DNA from: an uncultured Pseudomonas sp.
Lineage (GTDB): Bacteria > Pseudomonadota > Gammaproteobacteria > Pseudomonadales > Pseudomonadaceae
Assembly (NCBI GenBank): GCA_946886875.1
Contig: CAMPJN010000107.1
Location: 1-10,323 of the forward strand
DNA: 10,323 nt
Reading direction: 5' to 3'
Shown in pieces: positions 1,887 to 10,323 of the stretch. The notes under the pieces were generated by a model. That model had not been told where the DNA came from. It made no database searches and was given only the letters and a program-made list of their open reading frames with translations. The stretch's first letter is position 1. Every line of letters starts with the position of its first letter. Position numbers and translations under genes: made by a program.

Positions 1887-3563
1887 ATGCATGCGCTTCA
1901 GGTAGTCGTGATGCCAATATCCATTCGCCGCCGATTAGCAGCAAGACGAGGCCAGCGCCTCGTCTTGCTGCTGGTGACTATTCTCGCTATCCAACTATTG
2001 CCAAGCCAGCTCGCGGCCGCGGAGCCTCTGAGGCTGCAGTTGCGCTGGCTGCATCAATTCCAGTTCGCCGGCTATTACATGGCGCAGGAGAAAGGCTACT
2101 ACCGGCAAGCCGGGCTGGATGTCGAGATACTCGAAGGCGGGCCCCATGCGCCCAAGCCCATCGATAAGCTGCTGGCCGGCGAGGCGGACTTCACGATATC
2201 CAACAGCGGCCTGGTTATCGCCCACATGCAAGGCAAGCCGGTGGTCGCGCTGGCGGCGATCATGCAGACCTCGCCGATCGTCTGGATCGTACGCGCCGAC
2301 TCGGGCATCTATTCGCCCCATGATCTGGCCGGCAAGCGGGTGATGCTGATGCCGCCGCCGGAAAGCACCGAGCTGCTGGTCACCCTGGCCCGCGAGGGCA
2401 TCGACCTCAATCGCCTTGAAGTGCAACCGACCAGCTTCAACCCCCAGGATCTGATCGACCGTAAAACCGACGCCTATGACGGCTATAGCACCAACGAACC
2501 CTTCTGGCTGAAACAACAGGGCGTCGACTACCGCCTGATCATCCCGCGCGAGTATGGCGTCAACTACTACAACGACGTTCTGGCCACCCGCCAAGCCGTG
2601 CTGGATAAGCGACCGCAGGATGTCAGAGCCTTCGTCCAGGCCAGCCTCGCCGGCTGGCAATATGCGCTGGATCACATCGAAGAAAGCGTGCAACTGATCC
2701 ACCGACGCTATGCGCCGAACAAAAGCCTGGAACATCTGCGTTTCGAGGCAGAAGAACTGAAAAAACTGATCCTGCCGGAGCTGGTGCAGCTCGGCCATAT
2801 GAATCCCGGTCGCTGGGAAACCATCGCTCGCAATTACGCAGAACTGGGCTTGGCCAAAGGGTCGGTCGACCTCGATGGTTTCATCTACAGGCAACAACCC
2901 ACCACCGATTACCGCTTGCTTTACAAAGTGTTGGCGGGCTCATTGCTGTCATTGCTGGTACTGGGTGGCGTGGCCTTGCGCTTCGCCCATCTGACACGCC
3001 GGCTGCGCCATGAAATCGCGCTACGCCGCCAGGCCGAAAGCGAACTGCTGAACAGCAACCAACAATTGGAAGTCATGGCCAACACCGATCTGCTCACCGG
3101 TCAGCTGACCCGGCGCAAATTCGAGGAGGTGATCGACAAGGAGATCAAGCGCGCCGAACGCTACGGCTTTCCACTGTCACTGGTGTTTCTGGATATCGAC
3201 CATTTCAAGCAGATCAACGACGAACATGGCCACGAAGTCGGCGACCGGGTGCTCAGCGCCATGGCGGCGCGGATCAAGGCGCAACTACGCGAGTCCGATA
3301 GCCTGTGCCGCTGGGGCGGTGAAGAGTTCATCGTGCTGATGCCGCATATCGACCTAGATCTGGTGTGCACGCTGGCGGAGAAACTGCGCGCCATGCTGGC
3401 CGCCACGCCCTTGATCGAGAACATCCACGTCACCGCCAGCTTCGGCGTGGCGCAGTGGCAGCCCGGCCAGGACCTGGGCACGCTGATGCAACGCGCCGAC
3501 AAGATGCTTTACCGCGCCAAACAACTCGGCCGCAACCGGGTGGAGTGTTATCTGCCTGATTGA
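1887..3563 (+). CDS. Membrane diguanylate cyclase with periplasmic NMT1/THI5-like ligand-binding domain
   Basis: Predicted to make cyclic di-GMP from two GTP in response to a periplasmic ligand. Order of parts (558 aa): basic N-terminus and signal/anchor helix (about 22-45, ending LAAAEP); NMT1/THI5-like substrate-binding domain (about 47-340, with LRWLHQFQFAGYYMAQEKGYY, typical of this fold); one membrane helix (about 345-365); a short coiled-coil linker; GGDEF domain (about 395-556). Active-site residues are present: D436-I-D438, N444 and D453 in the metal/guanine segment, and GGEEF at 477-481. The inhibitory site RxxD (R468-E-S-D471) sits five residues before GGEEF, so product inhibition is likely. 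The usual DxLTGLxNRR motif reads DLLTGQLTRR here. The start is uncertain: ATG 1887 has GGA 5 nt upstream, while ATG 1911 has AGG 8 nt upstream and gives a tidier signal peptide. The ligand is unknown; the binding-protein family includes thiamine-precursor and sulfonate/nitrate binders. The gene ends 2 bp from the convergent isomerase stop. Confidence 0.88.
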   Translation: MHALQVVVMPISIRRRLAARRGQRLVLLLVTILAIQLLPSQLAAAEPLRLQLRWLHQFQFAGYYMAQEKGYYRQAGLDVEILEGGPHAPKPIDKLLAGEADFTISNSGLVIAHMQGKPVVALAAIMQTSPIVWIVRADSGIYSPHDLAGKRVMLMPPPESTELLVTLAREGIDLNRLEVQPTSFNPQDLIDRKTDAYDGYSTNEPFWLKQQGVDYRLIIPREYGVNYYNDVLATRQAVLDKRPQDVRAFVQASLAGWQYALDHIEESVQLIHRRYAPNKSLEHLRFEAEELKKLILPELVQLGHMNPGRWETIARNYAELGLAKGSVDLDGFIYRQQPTTDYRLLYKVLAGSLLSLLVLGGVALRFAHLTRRLRHEIALRRQAESELLNSNQQLEVMANTDLLTGQLTRRKFEEVIDKEIKRAERYGFPLSLVFLDIDHFKQINDEHGHEVGDRVLSAMAARIKAQLRESDSLCRWGGEEFIVLMPHIDLDLVCTLAEKLRAMLAATPLIENIHVTASFGVAQWQPGQDLGTLMQRADKMLYRAKQLGRNRVECYLPD

Positions 3564-5515: not shown

Positions 5516-6379
5516 ATGTTGAAACGTACCCTGGCACTCGCCGCAGGCGTAGCCCTGTGCTTTACCGCTGCAGTTTCCCAAGCCGCCGACGTCCTGCGCG
5601 TCTCGGCCATCCCCGATGAAGCCCCCACCGAACTGCTGCGCAAATTCGAGCCGCTGGGCGCTTACCTCGAGCAACAACTGGGCATGAAGGTCGAGTTCGT
5701 GCCGGTATCCGACTACGCCGCCGTGGTCGAAGCCATCGCCGCCGACCGCATCGACCTGGCCTGGCTCGGGGGTTTCACCTTCGTTCAGACCCGCCTGAAA
5801 ACCGCTGACAGCCAACACCCGGCGATTCCGCTGGTGCAGCGCGCCGAAGACGAAAAATTCACCAGCAAGATCATCAGCGCCGACCCGGCGGTGAAGTCGC
5901 TGCAGGACCTCAAAGGCAAAACCTTCGCTTTCGGCTCGGTGTCCTCGACTTCCGGTAGCCTGATGCCACGCTTCTTTATGGTGCAGGACGGCATCGAACC
6001 GGAGAAATTCTTCAGCCGCATCGCCTATTCCGGCGCCCACGACGCCACCGCCGCCTGGGTCCAGGCTGGCAAGGCCGACGGCGGCGTGCTCAACGCCTCG
6101 GTATGGGACAAGCTGGTCGCGGCCGGCAAGGTCGATACCGACAAGGTCAAAGTCATCGCCACCACCCCGCCCTACTTCGATTACAACTGGACGGTGCGCG
6201 GCACTCTCGACGCTGGTCTACGCGACAAGATTAAAGTAGCGTTCCTCGCCCTCGACCCGGCTAACCCGGAGCACAAGGCGATTCTCGACCTGCAAGCAGC
6301 CAGCCGCTTTATCGAAACCAAAGCCGAAAATTATCAAGGCATCGAAAAAGCAGCTTACGCGGCCGGCCTATTGAAGTGA
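5516..6379 (+). CDS. Periplasmic substrate-binding protein of a PhnD-family ABC importer (putative selenate/oxyanion type)
   Basis: A 287-aa periplasmic protein that captures an anion for the ABC transporter encoded just downstream. Seen: a clean signal peptide ([11 protein letters not shown], cleavage near AVSQAA/D at residue 24), then the PhnD/PtxB-type type-2 fold: [69 protein letters not shown] (ligand-loop serines), and [19 protein letters not shown]. Start: the frame is open further up, but ATG 5516 has CCGGAG 7 nt upstream and begins the signal peptide. The [13 protein letters not shown] and [11 protein letters not shown] wording recalls the group annotated in pseudomonads as 'putative selenate ABC transporter' rather than true phosphonate binders; no phn lyase or ptx genes are nearby. 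Substrate choice among selenate, phosphonate, phosphite or a related oxyanion is an inference. It overlaps the ATPase gene by 4 bp (GTGA). Confidence 0.83.
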
Positions 6380-7179
6380 GTGTCAGCCTCCGCGGCGTGG
6401 GTTTGACCCACGCCAACGGCCAGGTTGCGCTCAGCGGTATCGATCTGCAGGTACGCAGCGGCGAGCGGCTGGCGATTATCGGCCCCTCGGGCGCCGGCAA
6501 AACCAGCCTGCTGCGTGTGCTTGCCAGCAATCTGCAACCGACCATGGGCGAGATCGGCCTGCTCGACCAACAGCCCTGGCAAATGCCCGCCGGTCGACGG
6601 CAGCAGTTGCGCGCGCGCATCGGTTTGATCCACCAAAGCCCACCGCTGCCGCCGCGCCAACGGGTAATCACCGCGGTACTGGCCGGCAAGCTGGGGCAAT
6701 GGTCGTTGGGCAAAAGCCTGCTCAATCTGCTGTATCCGCTGGACATCCCAGGCGCCCGGGCGGCGCTTGCCCGCCTGGACCTGGCGGACAAACTGTTCGA
6801 GCGCTGCGACCAGCTTTCCGGCGGTCAGTTGCAGCGCGTGGGCATAGCCCGAGTGCTGTACCAGGCGCCGGAACTGATACTCGCAGACGAGCCAGTGTCG
6901 GCCATGGACCCGGTACTCGCCGGGCATACCCTGAGCGTGCTCAACGAAGAAGCCAGCAGACGCGGCATAACACTGCTGGCCAGCCTGCATGCGACCGAAC
7001 TTGCCCTGGCGCATTTCCCGCGGATTATCGGCGTGCGCGAGGGGCGCATTCTGTTCGACCTGCCGCCAGCCGAAATCGCCCCGGCGCAGCTCGATGCGCT
7101 CTACGCCAACGAGCAGTTGCAGACATTGCCCGCCTCGCCAGCCGCGGCGCCGGTCTGTCTACAGATCCCGCGATGCTGA
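6376..7179 (+). CDS. ABC importer ATPase (PhnC-like)
   Basis: A 267-aa cytoplasmic nucleotide-binding subunit that powers the importer. Walker A GPSGAGKT is at 36-43, the Q-loop Gln at 87, signature LSGGQ at 147-151, Walker B LILADE at 167-172 with catalytic Glu172, the D-loop region reads SAMDP (175-179), and the switch His is H205 in SLHATE. All motifs needed for ATP hydrolysis are present. The start is GTG at 6376, overlapping the binding-protein stop as GTGA, which indicates translational coupling; no ATG lies near the N-terminal strand. About 35 residues follow the last conserved part and end in a Pro/Ala-rich tail (PASPAAAPV). The gene overlaps the first permease by 7 bp. The family includes PhnC (phosphonate) and PtxA (phosphite); the substrate follows the binding protein. 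Confidence 0.9.
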
Positions 7180-8015
7180 AACCCGCGCCCCTGTCCCCTG
7201 TGCTACGCGACCCCGCCGCACTGCCACGCCTGGCGCTGACGCTGCTGGCGCTGTTGCTGTTATGGCCGGGTTTGCAGCTCAGTGAACTAAACCTGGCGGT
7301 GCTGGCCGAGCGCGATAACGCCGCCAATATGGGGCGCTTTCTCGCCGACTTCTGGCCACCGGCGCACGAGCCGGAGTTCCTCCGCCTGCTCGGTCGCGCG
7401 ACCCTGGAAACCCTGGCCATCGCCACCGCGGGCATGGCCCTGGCGCTGTTGATCGCGGTTCCCGGTGCCTTGCTCGCCAGCCGCGCCTTATCGCTGTCGG
7501 CGCTGCACCGCGACGGCCGCCCGGTCTGGTGGGCGCAAGCCCTGCGCTGGCCGGTGCGCGGCCTGTTGATCGTATTGCGCAGCGTACCGGAGATCGTCTG
7601 GGCATTGCTGTTCGTCCGCGCCGTCGGCCTCGGCCCCACCGCCGGGGTGCTGGCCATCGCGATCACCTACAGCGGCATGCTCGGCAAGGTCTATGCGGAG
7701 ATTTTCGAATCGGTCGACCCGCGTCCCAGCCGCGCCCTGCTGCTGGCCGGCAGCCCACGTCTGACGGCGTTCGCCTATGGCATCCTGCCCAACGCCGCGG
7801 CGGAGATGCTCTCCTACAGTGTCTACCGCTGGGAATGCGCTATCCGCGCCTCAGTGATCATGGGCTTCGTCGGCGCCGGCGGTTTGGGCCAACAGATCGA
7901 TCTGTCGATGCGCATGTTCGCCGGCGGCGAAGTCGCAAGCATGCTCTTGACCTTCCTCGCCCTGGTACTGCTCGCCGACCAGATCAGCCGCTTGCTGCGC
8001 ACGAGGCTGCTATGA
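7173..8015 (+). CDS. ABC importer permease 1 (PhnE-like)
   Basis: A 280-aa inner-membrane subunit forming half of the translocation path. The frame is open well upstream, but that stretch is only the antisense-frame reading of the ATPase gene. ATG 7173 (inside ATGCTGA) begins just before the first hydrophobic helix, [14 protein letters not shown]. Further membrane segments lie at [63 protein letters not shown] and [18 protein letters not shown]. The coupling loop reads [20 protein letters not shown], a degenerate EAA motif of the kind seen in Phn[13 protein letters not shown] and [12 protein letters not shown] are family signatures shared with the second permease, so the two are paralogues. 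It overlaps the genes on both sides (7 bp and 4 bp). Confidence 0.88.
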
Positions 8016-8803
8016 ACACGCCAGCACGCCTGCGCAACGCGCGCTTATTGAACATCGGCCTGCTATTCGGCCTGCTCGCGGCGGTGATCGCCTCCTTCGT
8101 CTATCTGGGTATCGATCTCGGTGCCCTACTCGGCGGCGACAGCCTGAGCCAGATGGGCCGCTATGCCAGCGGCTTCGCCCAGCCGGACTTTTCCGCCGCG
8201 CACCTCAGGGCGATTTATCAGGGCGCCTTGGAAACCCTGGCCATGTCTGCCATCGGCACCCTGCTCGCAGCTCTGCTCGGTTTGCTCCTGGCGTTGCCAG
8301 CGGCCGGGCGTTTCGGCTGGCTGGCCTCGAGCGGCGCGCGTTTGCTATTGAATGCCCTGCGCGCCATTCCCGAGCTGGTTTGGGCGGCGCTGGTGGTATT
8401 GGCCGCAGGCCTCGGCCCGAATGCCGGCACCCTGGCATTGGCGCTGCACACCAGCGGCGTACTCGGCCGTCTGTTCGCCGAAGCCCTGGAAAACACCCCG
8501 ACCGAACCGGCTGAAGCGATTCGCCTAAGCGGCGGCGGGCCTGTCGCGGCCTTCTGCTACGGCACCCTACCCTGCGTTTGGCCACAACTGATCGCTTATT
8601 CGCTGTACCGCTGGGAAAACAACATCCGCATGGCCAGCGTACTCGGCTTCGTCGGTGCCGGCGGCCTGGGGCAGATGCTCTATGTCAGCCTCAGCCTGTT
8701 CCAGCAAGCCCAAGCGGCCACGGTGATCCTGGCCATGCTGCTGATGGTGGTGGCTGTCGACGCGCTCAGCGGCTGGGCGCGCCAGCGTTGGGTCAGTCAC
8801 TAA
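8012..8803 (+). CDS. ABC importer permease 2 (PhnE-like)
   Basis: A 263-aa inner-membrane protein, the partner of permease 1 in a heterodimeric channel. ATG 8012 overlaps the preceding stop as ATGA; the longer open frame upstream is a shadow of permease 1. Helices are visible at LLNIGLLFGLLAAVIASFVYLG, LETLAMSAIGTLLAALLGLLLALP, LLNALRAIPELVWAALVVLAAGL and ATVILAMLLMVVAVDAL. Its coupling loop EALENTPTEPAEAIRLSGG keeps more of the EAA consensus than that of permease 1. RAIPELVWAAL, YSLYRWENNIRMASVLGFVGAGG and GLGQ mirror permease 1. It is the last gene of the transporter operon. Its final 11 bp overlap the 3' end of the convergent integrase pseudogene. A 5-bp CCTCT/AGAGG hairpin follows (about 8807-8821) without a T run, so no clear terminator is visible. 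Confidence 0.88.
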   Translation: MNTPARLRNARLLNIGLLFGLLAAVIASFVYLGIDLGALLGGDSLSQMGRYASGFAQPDFSAAHLRAIYQGALETLAMSAIGTLLAALLGLLLALPAAGRFGWLASSGARLLLNALRAIPELVWAALVVLAAGLGPNAGTLALALHTSGVLGRLFAEALENTPTEPAEAIRLSGGGPVAAFCYGTLPCVWPQLIAYSLYRWENNIRMASVLGFVGAGGLGQMLYVSLSLFQQAQAATVILAMLLMVVAVDALSGWARQRWVSH

Positions 8804-9402
8804 GCCCTCTACCCCAGAGGCTCAGCACTCCGGCAAATGCCTGACCCAGCACTTGGGTATAGATCTGGGTCATCCGCACATCGGCATGGCCAAAGAGCGT
8901 TTGCACCGTACGAATATCGCTACCACGACGCATTAGTTCAGTGGCAAAGCTATGGCGAAAGGTGTGGCAGCCGGCTGGCTTATGAATACTGGAGCGCCGC
9001 ACAGCCTGCTTGACCGCCTTCTGGATGGAGCTGACACGTAAATGAACGCAGCGAGGATTCGATGTACTTCCTCAATCGACAAAACCGCGGGTAAACGATG
9101 CGGCTTGTTCACCTGTACAACATCGGCCAGCTAGGGCAAATCGAGCGCCAGTACCTCCTTATAAAAAACAGCAAAGCGGACAGCGCCGGTTCTGCGTAGA
9201 TGCCGAAACATTATGCTTCACCGCCAGCTCGGGTAAGAAAGGGTTCAACTTCGGCAGCCCCCATGCCCTGGGGGTGACGATATTGGTGAAAGCGGGTAAA
9301 GCGCTTTACCCAGTCGCAATAGACGTGCTCAGTGCGAATCGAGTAGTGTTTCAGGCGAATCTGCTCGCGAACCTGGTCGAGTAACCGAGGCTTTCCGTCC
9401 AT
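8793..9402 (-). pseudogene. intI: Integron integrase intI, inactivated remnant
   Basis: A tyrosine recombinase of the integron-integrase type, destroyed. Reading from ATG 9402 (GGGAG ribosome site upstream), the N-terminal domain is clear: KPRLLDQVREQIRLKHYSIR and MGAAEVEPFLT. A +1 shift near 9231 moves to ELAVKHNVSASTQN; a -1 shift follows before ALSALLF; another -1 shift in a T run restores YKEVLALDLP. TAG (9131-9133) replaces the expected Trp codon; then LADVVQVNKP and HRLPAVLSIEEVHRILAAF. Near 9038-9046 the sequence jumps to the C-terminus (SSIQKAVKQAV, CHTFRHSFATELMRRG, GHADVRMTQIYTQVL). By comparison with integrases of about 320-340 aa, roughly 115-120 central codons are missing, including the first catalytic Arg and Lys. 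The His-x-x-Arg, second His and Tyr nucleophile codons remain. No active enzyme can be made. The 3' end overlaps permease 2 by 11 bp. Confidence 0.92.
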
Positions 9403-9538
9403 GGTGTATAACTCCCTTTACTGCCAAAACACAGCGCCAAGCCCCAGCCTAGACGGCCCAGCACGACAGGACAAGAATGTTATCCACCACGCCCGCAAAA
9501 GCGTTATCACACCAGTTGGTGTCTATTTATCGTTAAGT
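9403..9538. other. attI-like region with core site GTTAAGT (9532-9538)
   Basis: This stretch lies between the integrase start and the first cassette, where attI belongs. GTTAAGT (9532-9538) fits the core consensus GTTRRRY; crossover would fall between G9532 and T9533. The assignment is confirmed by the first cassette's attC, whose R'' box (ACTTAAC, 9899-9905) is the exact complement. Ten bases before the core, ACACCA-gt-TGGTGT (9509-9522) is a perfect 6-bp inverted repeat that could be part of the integrase-binding sites. I found no convincing cassette promoter (Pc) or LexA box; TATAAC (9407-9412) resembles a -10 box but lacks a -35 partner. Confidence 0.7.
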
Positions 9539-9968
9539 GCAATCTGGTGACCCATGAAATATATTATTGCCATTCTTGGAGGTTGGATACTCGGCGCTGT
9601 CACGATCGTATTCACAAATCACGTCAATGACTCCAGCGGCAGCATTCATATTAACGTTGAGAACGATACCAACATAACATTCTCACTAATTACCTTGCAG
9701 GTTGAATCTGCACAACGCTTCACATGCACTCTTCACTACAACAAGTGCTCGTTTGTCGTGGCTCATTTGGGCGACACCAACTTTGAGCTTCAAGCCACTA
9801 AAGAGGGTGAAACATCACCGAGTCTGCATTATTCGGTAGGGTACGCGGAGTCAGGTTCTGCCCTAGTAATAAATCTCAGCCAATTCAACAAAAATGGCAC
9901 TTAACAAGTGGTTCAAATCGCTCGCTTTGCTCGCTGGGACGGGCTAAAGCCCGCCCCTTAACCAAACG
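9533..9968 (+). mobile_element. Gene cassette 1 (complete)
   Basis: The borders follow from the two core sites: G|TTAAGT at 9532/9533 and G|TTATGA at 9968/9969, giving a 436-bp cassette. When circular, its attC would have R' = G+TTAAGT, which pairs perfectly with its R'' ACTTAAC (9899-9905). It holds a single ORF starting 21 nt after the crossover point, so the 5' leader is very short and expression should depend on an outside promoter. The content is visibly AT-richer than the chromosomal genes to the left. Confidence 0.85.
9554..9904 (+). CDS. Cassette-encoded small exported or membrane-anchored protein, unknown function
   Basis: A 116-aa ORF filling cassette 1; I do not recognise the family. 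The N-terminus MKYIIAILGGWILGAVTIVF is a hydrophobic helix with one Lys at the start, either an uncleaved inner-membrane anchor or a signal peptide without an obvious cleavage motif. The rest (about 24-116) is polar and reads as alternating beta-strands (SIHINVEND, ITFSLITLQV, FELQATKEG, SALVINLSQ), suggesting a small periplasmic beta-fold. Two cysteines (C58, C65) could form a disulfide there. The ATG at 9554 has a weak GGTGA ribosome site 4-5 nt upstream. The TAA stop (9902-9904) lies within the attC R'' box, as is usual for cassettes. Composition and codon use differ from the chromosomal genes, consistent with acquisition. No toxin, antitoxin, resistance or acetyltransferase motif is visible. 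Confidence 0.75.
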   Translation: MKYIIAILGGWILGAVTIVFTNHVNDSSGSIHINVENDTNITFSLITLQVESAQRFTCTLHYNKCSFVVAHLGDTNFELQATKEGETSPSLHYSVGYAESGSALVINLSQFNKNGT

Positions 9969-9974
9969 TTATGA
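9899..9974 (+). other. attC recombination site of cassette 1
   Basis: A 76-bp imperfect palindrome with all attC parts: R'' ACTTAAC (9899-9905), 3-nt spacer AAG, L'' TGGTTCAA (9909-9916), centre, L' TTAACCA (9958-9964), 3-nt spacer AAC, R' GTTATGA (9968-9974). L'' and L' pair over 7 bp with C9914 left extrahelical, the feature that sets strand choice and polarity. The centre holds a strong extra hairpin: GGG-a-CGGGCT (9936-9945), loop AA, AGCCCG-c-CCC (9948-9957), and a direct repeat GCTCGC at 9920-9925 and 9929-9934. R' does not match R'' because R' belongs to the next cassette. Confidence 0.9.
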
Positions 9975-9985
9975 GGTATGACGCA

Positions 9986-10273
9986 ATGACCGAGGCTGAT
10001 CTGAAATTTTATTTGCTGCTTAAAAGGCAGAGTAAATATACAATTCATGTATACGCAGTACTTTCAGCTGCTCTGTTTTTGAATTCGCACTTTCACTTCC
10101 TTAGTCTTATTAATGGTCAGTTGTCCTTCCTTGTAGCAAGCTATTTGACCATCATAGTATTTTCATCTTTCTTCAGAGAAACGTCCGATCAAAAAGCATG
10201 CAGAATCATCGAAGAGTATATAAACAATGATCAAGCTCTCATGGTAAAGCTGAACGAATTGCGGAACTCATAA
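9986..10273 (+). CDS. Cassette-encoded small two-helix membrane protein, unknown function
   Basis: A 95-aa ORF in cassette 2 with no family I recognise. A polar, charged N-terminus (MTEADLKFYLLLKRQSKY) leads into two hydrophobic segments (HVYAVLSAALFLNSHFHFLSL and LSFLVASYLTIIVFSSFF) separated by a short NGQ turn, so both ends are probably cytoplasmic. A charged, helical tail follows (SDQKACRIIEEYINNDQALM to ELRNS). Start: ATG 9986 has GAGG 9 nt upstream. ATG 9971, which would add MRYDA, lies inside the recombination core GTTATGA and has no ribosome site, so I prefer 9986 but cannot exclude 9971. The TAA stop (10271-10273) lies inside the R'' box. The gene is AT-rich with rare-codon use unlike the flanking chromosome. 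Small membrane proteins are common in cassette arrays; no specific role can be assigned. Confidence 0.7.
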   Translation: MTEADLKFYLLLKRQSKYTIHVYAVLSAALFLNSHFHFLSLINGQLSFLVASYLTIIVFSSFFRETSDQKACRIIEEYINNDQALMVKLNELRNS

Positions 10274-10323
10274 CAATGCGTATATGGACTCTCTCCACAA
10301 GTAGTGAGTAAAGCTTTGCTTTT
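10268..10323 (+). other. attC site of cassette 2, 5' part only
   Basis: It starts with R'' TCATAAC (10268-10274), the complement of the cassette's own 5' core, followed by AATGCG. The 56 visible bases differ completely from attC 1 beyond the R'' box, so the two sites are of different types and the cassettes likely have different origins. The end (AAAGCTTTGCTTTT) reaches the window edge before L' and R'. Confidence 0.65.

Follow-up and report, generated by a model that had tools for sequence, protein, structure and literature searches.

The closest described counterparts of the locus reported here are the intI pseudogenes of chromosomal integrons ("pseudo-integrons"), in which frameshifts, stop codons and large losses occur as they do in our sequence (accessible text of PMC2426708 and PMC3108266). 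In the same portions of these sources, nearly one third (PMC2426708) or 43-46% (PMC3108266) of intI genes are given as decayed, and more than one intI per genome as occurring in ~20% of integron bearers (PMC2426708). Integrase decay is usually taken as loss inside one gene, and the pseudogenes described in those portions do carry their indels and stops inside one gene, whereas the halves of the relic analysed here very probably stem from two intI lineages. A fusion involving intI genes is likewise described for clade 15, but in the available text of PMC2426708 its proteins are ~120 residues longer, clade-wide and perhaps functional, with a partner that is not named, whereas our product is a short broken relic. 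Another similar case is provided by the integrons of Xanthomonas, in which intI is truncated or lost and the arrays are stable. They share with our locus the retention of cassettes beside a truncated integrase and the position of intI downstream of a host gene. They differ in that, according to the available text of PMC12444791, nearly all lie downstream of ilvD and mostly contain one inherited intI (with a second variant in X. arboricola), whereas the locus here adjoins phnE2 and bears what appears to be a two-lineage scar.

The window, by which we mean the whole stretch of 10,323 nucleotides of an uncultured Pseudomonas sp. that was analysed, had been described in an initial annotation as carrying the decayed remains of an integron integrase, next to which the cassette border and an attC are well formed, and this description is borne out. 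With intact IntI proteins as queries, tblastn detected homology in all three minus-strand frames in the order originally described, namely frame -1 (9393-9166), frame -2 (9290-9162), frame -3 (9163 to ~9038) and again frame -2 (9044-8811), with best E-values of 3e-36 (C-terminal stretch) and 3e-19 (N-terminal stretches). In Pfam, the N piece matches PF13495, the N-terminal SAM-like domain (9214-9402, profile positions 1-51 of 85, 1.1e-15), and the C piece matches PF00589, the catalytic domain, in its C-terminal part only (profile positions 120-168 of 172, 2.9e-15). For TIGR02249, the "integron integrase" family of NCBIfam, each of the two pieces gave a match, covering 1-52 and 236-310 of the 315 profile positions; being fragments, these matches fall below the whole-protein cut-off. 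Coordinates of the features are collected in Table 1.

Table 1. Features of the integron remnant and its surroundings, with half-integrase relics of related genomes.
Feature	Position	Strand	Evidence
phnE2, second phosphonate-type ABC permease, intact, flank abutted by the remnant	8012..8803	+	TIGR01097 PhnE, 242 bits, above cut-off; 90.6% aa to G086
Left border of integron debris, five bases between phnE2 stop and lineage-B intI stop	8804..8808	.	sequence
Lineage-B intI, last 78 codons and stop, one lesion near 8818	8809..9045	-	82.6-83.0% nt to L151, L152, L153 from 9045 down to 8811, 8806, 8819; 86% aa to P0121 residues 244-321
Probable fusion point	9044..9045	.	TC fits both parents; reading frame offset by one base across the junction
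Lineage-A intI, first 120 codons with three single-base shifts and TAG	9044..9402	-	78-79% nt to L148, L149 up to 9044; 77% to L147 up to 9084; 84% aa to P0001 residues 1-57
Lineage-A attI region	9403..9535	+	crossover core 9532-9535; 44/44 columns invariant in 18 A-type relatives agree
Gene cassette 1	9533..9968	+	ORF 9554-9904 (116 aa), no Pfam or NCBIfam family
attC 1, Pseudomonas type	9894..9974	+	at most 94.4% identity to attC of A array (L147), at most 95.7% to B arrays (L151, L152)
Gene cassette 2 (start)	9969..10323	+	ORF 9971-10273 (100 aa)
Half-integrase relics in relatives	L146 6272-6661; L150 6294-6752; L189 6740-6330; L190 6579-7169		

DNA alignment to intact relatives of the N piece (lineage A, see below) placed single-base indels near 9231, 9185 and 9165, and a TAG at 9131-9133 occupies the position of a Trp codon in the lineage-A relatives shown; all four lesions had been recognised correctly from the sequence itself. 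With these three shifts, the TAG and an out-of-frame junction further downstream, no single open frame runs through the remnant. The initial annotation had also reported a jump near 9038-9046 that removes ~115-120 codons including the first catalytic Arg. A jump is indeed found, near 9044, where codons 1-120 of lineage A are followed by residues 244-321 of lineage B so that ~123 codons of an intact IntI are without counterpart; its interpretation as a deletion within one gene is not supported. The first catalytic Arg box, which we take to lie within the missing central segment, is absent from the remnant. The C piece retains the HxxR, GH and Tyr motifs of the catalytic domain, as read in the tblastn alignment. 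The IntI-specific domain, given as residues 186-245 of VchIntIA in the accessible part of PMC3108266, disappeared along with the central segment. At the other end of the gene, the boundary previously set at 8793 has to be corrected, as the lineage-B stop codon is retained at 8811-8809; the ORF ends at 8793 only because the frame shifted by a further single-base lesion near 8818, in the lineage-B part, runs on past this stop. Lacking the central part that holds the first catalytic Arg, and with mismatched frames on either side of the jump, the product cannot make an integrase. Judged by its sequence, the remnant is a dead chromosomal integron integrase, in itself an ordinary kind of object, with an origin that appears to be unusual.

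Sequencing or assembly could in principle mimic such an object, by a false join combined with indel errors, and it may be noted that one of the indels lies in a homopolymer and that the window is a single sequence. Yet the neighbouring garR, hyi and phn genes match a relative (G384) almost end to end, so that the lesions are local and an error rate producing three shifts in 360 bases is unlikely, and only two bases are common at the join, too few for an assembler overlap. We thus regard an artefact as very improbable. Protein P0247, listed with a 574-base contig, contains 46 consecutive residues that are also found unchanged in the C piece, and the junction is not visible in that record.

The closest relatives differ between one side of the jump and the other. 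In DNA alignments, lineage A covers 9402-9044 together with the attI (to 9535), and lineage B covers 9045-8806: L148 and L149 (A) align from 9542 or 9535 to 9044, L151-L153 (B) align from 9045 down to 8806-8819, and L147, an intact A gene, aligns only as far as 9084. The lineages are homologous, and each also shows a weak alignment (62-65% nt) with portions of the half assigned to the other. When 398 genomes of the P. alcaliphila genus were searched at the DNA level (88 with a match), the query was split into two blocks (~3-233 and 241-732) whose best matches come from different genomes. G245 and G384 each match both blocks, but at separate loci, the distances being 230 and 415 kb. In this search and in that with the phn genes, no more than two candidates were scored in nearly every genome; a missing match therefore does not equal absence, and all figures for co-occurrence are lower bounds. 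Lineage A includes the IntI of Pseudomonas sp. CC6-YY-74 (P0001), P. taeanensis MS-3 (P0011) and Pseudomonas sp. MT-1 (P0118), which share the first 120 codons and the attI with the window but are at most 58% identical in the C-terminal part among the A places tested. Lineage B, represented by P0121 (as in G086) and by L001-L004 from Pseudomonas sp. P818, P. composti, P. alcaliphila and P. oleovorans, shares the last 78 codons and the stop codon but is at most 62% identical in the N-terminal part among the B places tested, and its attI is different.

A C-piece match was obtained at 118 places, and at 105 of them the gene concerned matches the N piece too (some of the places were retrieved twice). 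The 22 of these 105 places with an N-piece identity of at least 70% reach 58% at most in the C piece, a ceiling that applies equally to the close N matches (77-86%); the 19 places with at least 70% identity in the C piece reach 62% at most in the N piece, as do the close C matches (72-87%). An IntI that is at least 65% identical in both pieces was found at none of the 105 places, the nearest single gene to a hybrid being L058 with 65% in the N piece and 58% in the C piece. The phylogenetic trees, with 51 rows each and only 57 columns (N) and 78 columns (C), are discordant: a placement of the N piece with lineage B is rejected (p-AU 0.0019) and one with lineage A is not (0.434), and a placement of the C piece with lineage A is rejected (p-AU 0.0047). 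The C piece forms one branch with lineage B (support 92/88, not starred), the window's C piece being flagged for odd letter composition, and lineage A is a separate branch in that tree (100/98); in the N tree, lineage A is not a clean branch.

The initial annotation had read the remnant as one IntI with a central deletion. On that reading, the intact ancestor would need to have combined an N-terminus like that of A with a C-terminus like that of B. A single, internally deleted integrase would account for the IntI identity of both pieces, for their correct order and orientation and for the ~123 codons missing between them. Such an IntI is, however, absent from the 105 places, lineage A stands apart from the C piece in the tree, and the attI is of type A. 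Given the different closest relatives, the discordant trees and the lack of hybrids, this reading is unsupported and we consider it improbable; the homologue searches, made with one A and one B protein, scored ~8000 homologues each, of which the best 120 were seen, and a native hybrid might exist elsewhere. From these comparisons it appears to us very probable that the front of one chromosomal integron integrase, A, has been fused in the remnant to the tail of a different one, B, and the TC at 9045-9044 is compatible with the flanks of both parents. A scar of a fusion between two lineages, its origin included, is quite likely the best explanation of the locus as a whole.

The phn-type transporter operon upstream of the remnant is conserved in the genomes of relatives, with the best match in G086 (87% nt over 498 bases). 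Among the matches listed, every phn match ends at or before position 8810 of the window, and no integron DNA was found in 59 phn loci of relatives (several of them the same place twice, and many with 1.5 kb of flank only). As far as sampled, the placement of the integron beside phnE2 would thus be particular to the lineage of the window. In G142 (L153 6252-7217 and 7214-9001), the end of a lineage-B intI overlaps the end of a convergent ORF, so that tight integron borders, such as the five bases next to phnE2, are not unique. The binding protein of the operon itself (5516-8803) scores best in TIGR04553 (365 bits, cut-off 250), the family of putative selenate ABC transporter binding proteins, and two PhnE-like permeases come after it. 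Elsewhere in the window, an NMT1/THI5-like periplasmic binding domain is fused to a GGDEF domain (1887-3563), and a 602-residue ORF that is open at the window start (3-1811) has no Pfam, NCBIfam or meaningful solved-structure match; its glycine run SAGGGTGSG resembles, we presume, the tubulin/FtsZ signature.

A mobile (class 1-type) integron, borne on a transposon or plasmid and with an array of resistance genes, is not indicated: the phn neighbourhood is conserved, the region 6376-8803 had no plasmid match in the "near" search and the cassette ORFs belong to no Pfam family. When the remnant was compared with plasmids, the best 20 of 109 matching records were attC-sized, with two exceptions, an intI match of 119 bases in Vibrio gangliei and a match of 138 bases to the end of phnE2; in a further plasmid search, 8 of the 117 matches listed were attC-sized.

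With respect to the origin of the scar, the joined points lie at non-matching positions of the two genes, for which ordinary gene conversion does not account but an illegitimate join does; the two-base overlap at the junction is too short for identifying the mechanism. The simplest route, which we see as evenly poised between right and wrong, is the collapse by deletion of tandem A and B integrons facing the same way. The ancestor would have possessed both integrons in the same orientation, with B adjoining phnE2, and one illegitimate deletion would have run from within intI_B to within intI_A, taking out the 5' portion of the former, attI_B, B cassettes if there were any, and the 3' portion of the latter. 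What remained would be the first 120 codons of A with its attI and array, to which the last 78 codons of B are attached out of frame. Both lineages do occur together: of 13 genomes with a B match of at least 200 bases, five also have an A-like match (G291, G245, G384, G205 and G003; a lower bound), which in G205 and G003 is at only 69-71% nt, and G142 is a further relative holding both. The attC type is common to A and B arrays.

A rearrangement, by inversion or translocation, may instead have joined the broken ends of a distant B and a distant A integron. This alternative accords with the separation of the two loci in G245 and G384, with neighbours of A and B integrons that vary from locus to locus, and with the failure to see a tandem A-B pair among 129 loci with IntI, where two loci have two IntI places, neither of them A-B; many of these loci reach only 1.5 kb beyond the match, so that tandem pairs with long arrays would escape. 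It requires, however, that two broken integrons meet in the same orientation, whereas a tandem deletion is one event, and we regard it as possible but somewhat doubtful. None of 133 intI loci has phn genes.

Half-integrase relics recur in related genomes (Table 1). Only the C-terminus of B is present in G384 and G245, only the C-terminus of A in G142, and only the N-terminus of A with its attI in G472. Some of these relics may be further scars of this sort.

The attI adjoins the start of intI, as in a chromosomal integron platform, and it matches A-type loci and not the B loci tested, the alignment having a match in 18 of the 21 loci given. Of 70 columns that are invariant in nine intact A genes, the attI of the window keeps 69, and the one that is changed shows the same change in L101 and L107. 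Selection on attI was considered and not upheld, as a comparison of 69/70 with A coding (182/197) and B coding columns (133/140) gave Fisher p = 0.078 and 0.27. The bottom strand of attC 1 folds at -14.6 kcal/mol (z -2.35), a value equalled by 4 of 200 shuffles. Near the end of the window what seems to be a second attC starts and is cut by it; the cassettes are bounded by attC, and the array is likewise cut by the window end. A crude scan of 9200-9620 for the cassette promoter Pc found no sigma-70-like site, and Rfam gave no match at the gathering threshold. Both cassette ORFs are without a Pfam family, and in NCBIfam only ORF 9971-10273 had a match, far below threshold. Their hydrophobic stretches, judged by eye, suggest small membrane or exported proteins.

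Being integrase-less, such a product would leave the A array stable, unless an integrase in trans acts on attI_A and the shared attC type. The well-kept attI and the typical attC 1 indicate that the array could be used in this way. In the initial annotation the array was taken to be either immobile or supplied with an integrase from another locus. Nine of 16 relatives, chosen by their phn or intI matches and hence not at random, have one or more A- or B-like IntI that are full-length and without interruption; in six, every such IntI is interrupted or cut, and one (G465) has none at the threshold used.

The number of lesions had originally been taken to imply long disuse, a claim that is weak in the light of the substitution pattern. 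The A part of the window has a dN/dS of 0.08-0.22 against 10 full-length A genes (43 A-gene pairs: median 0.08, maximum 0.14), and the B part has 0.04-0.12 against 11 B genes (55 B-gene pairs: median 0.06, maximum 0.22), all values being rough, with many dS near saturation. The set comprised genes of at least 300 codons (without L181 and L097), and the comparison passed over the stretch of about six codons that separates the second shift from the third. Such low values imply that most of the divergence accumulated under purifying selection, and they point to a decay that is recent relative to the divergence, with the A part somewhat relaxed. The window also keeps 32 of 34 N-piece residues that are invariant in 14 A proteins and 43 of 50 C-piece residues invariant in 14 B proteins. 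In leave-one-out comparisons of the coding DNA, 15 of 197 invariant columns are lost in the A part, barely beyond the intact A relatives (0-14), and 7 of 140 in the B part, equal to the worst intact B relative (0-7; ten B genes); in the corresponding control, intact A relatives lose 0-9 attI columns.

Integrase decay itself is known; what sets this locus apart is the probable two-lineage origin of one intI relic. Searching by title and start of the abstract, with subscription papers mostly outside coverage, we found no report in which the parts of a decayed intI were traced to two lineages, a negative result that counts only weakly as evidence of absence. A fuller reading, to which we give slightly less than half of our credence, is that two chromosomal integrons of different lineages merged when a deletion ran into both integrase genes, leaving a hybrid scar and placing the attI and array of A at the site of B by phnE2, as an integrase-less platform with an attI usable in trans.

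If other decayed intI genes are two-lineage fusions as well, counts of internal deletions, and trees built from pieced-together pseudogenes by the method described in the accessible text of PMC2426708, could mislead. Such a scar is easily sought, by comparing the nearest relatives of the two halves. The sequence studied here suggests that two gene-capture platforms have been merged into one scar and, if this is true more widely, integrons would gain a route to merge platforms and to relocate their arrays.
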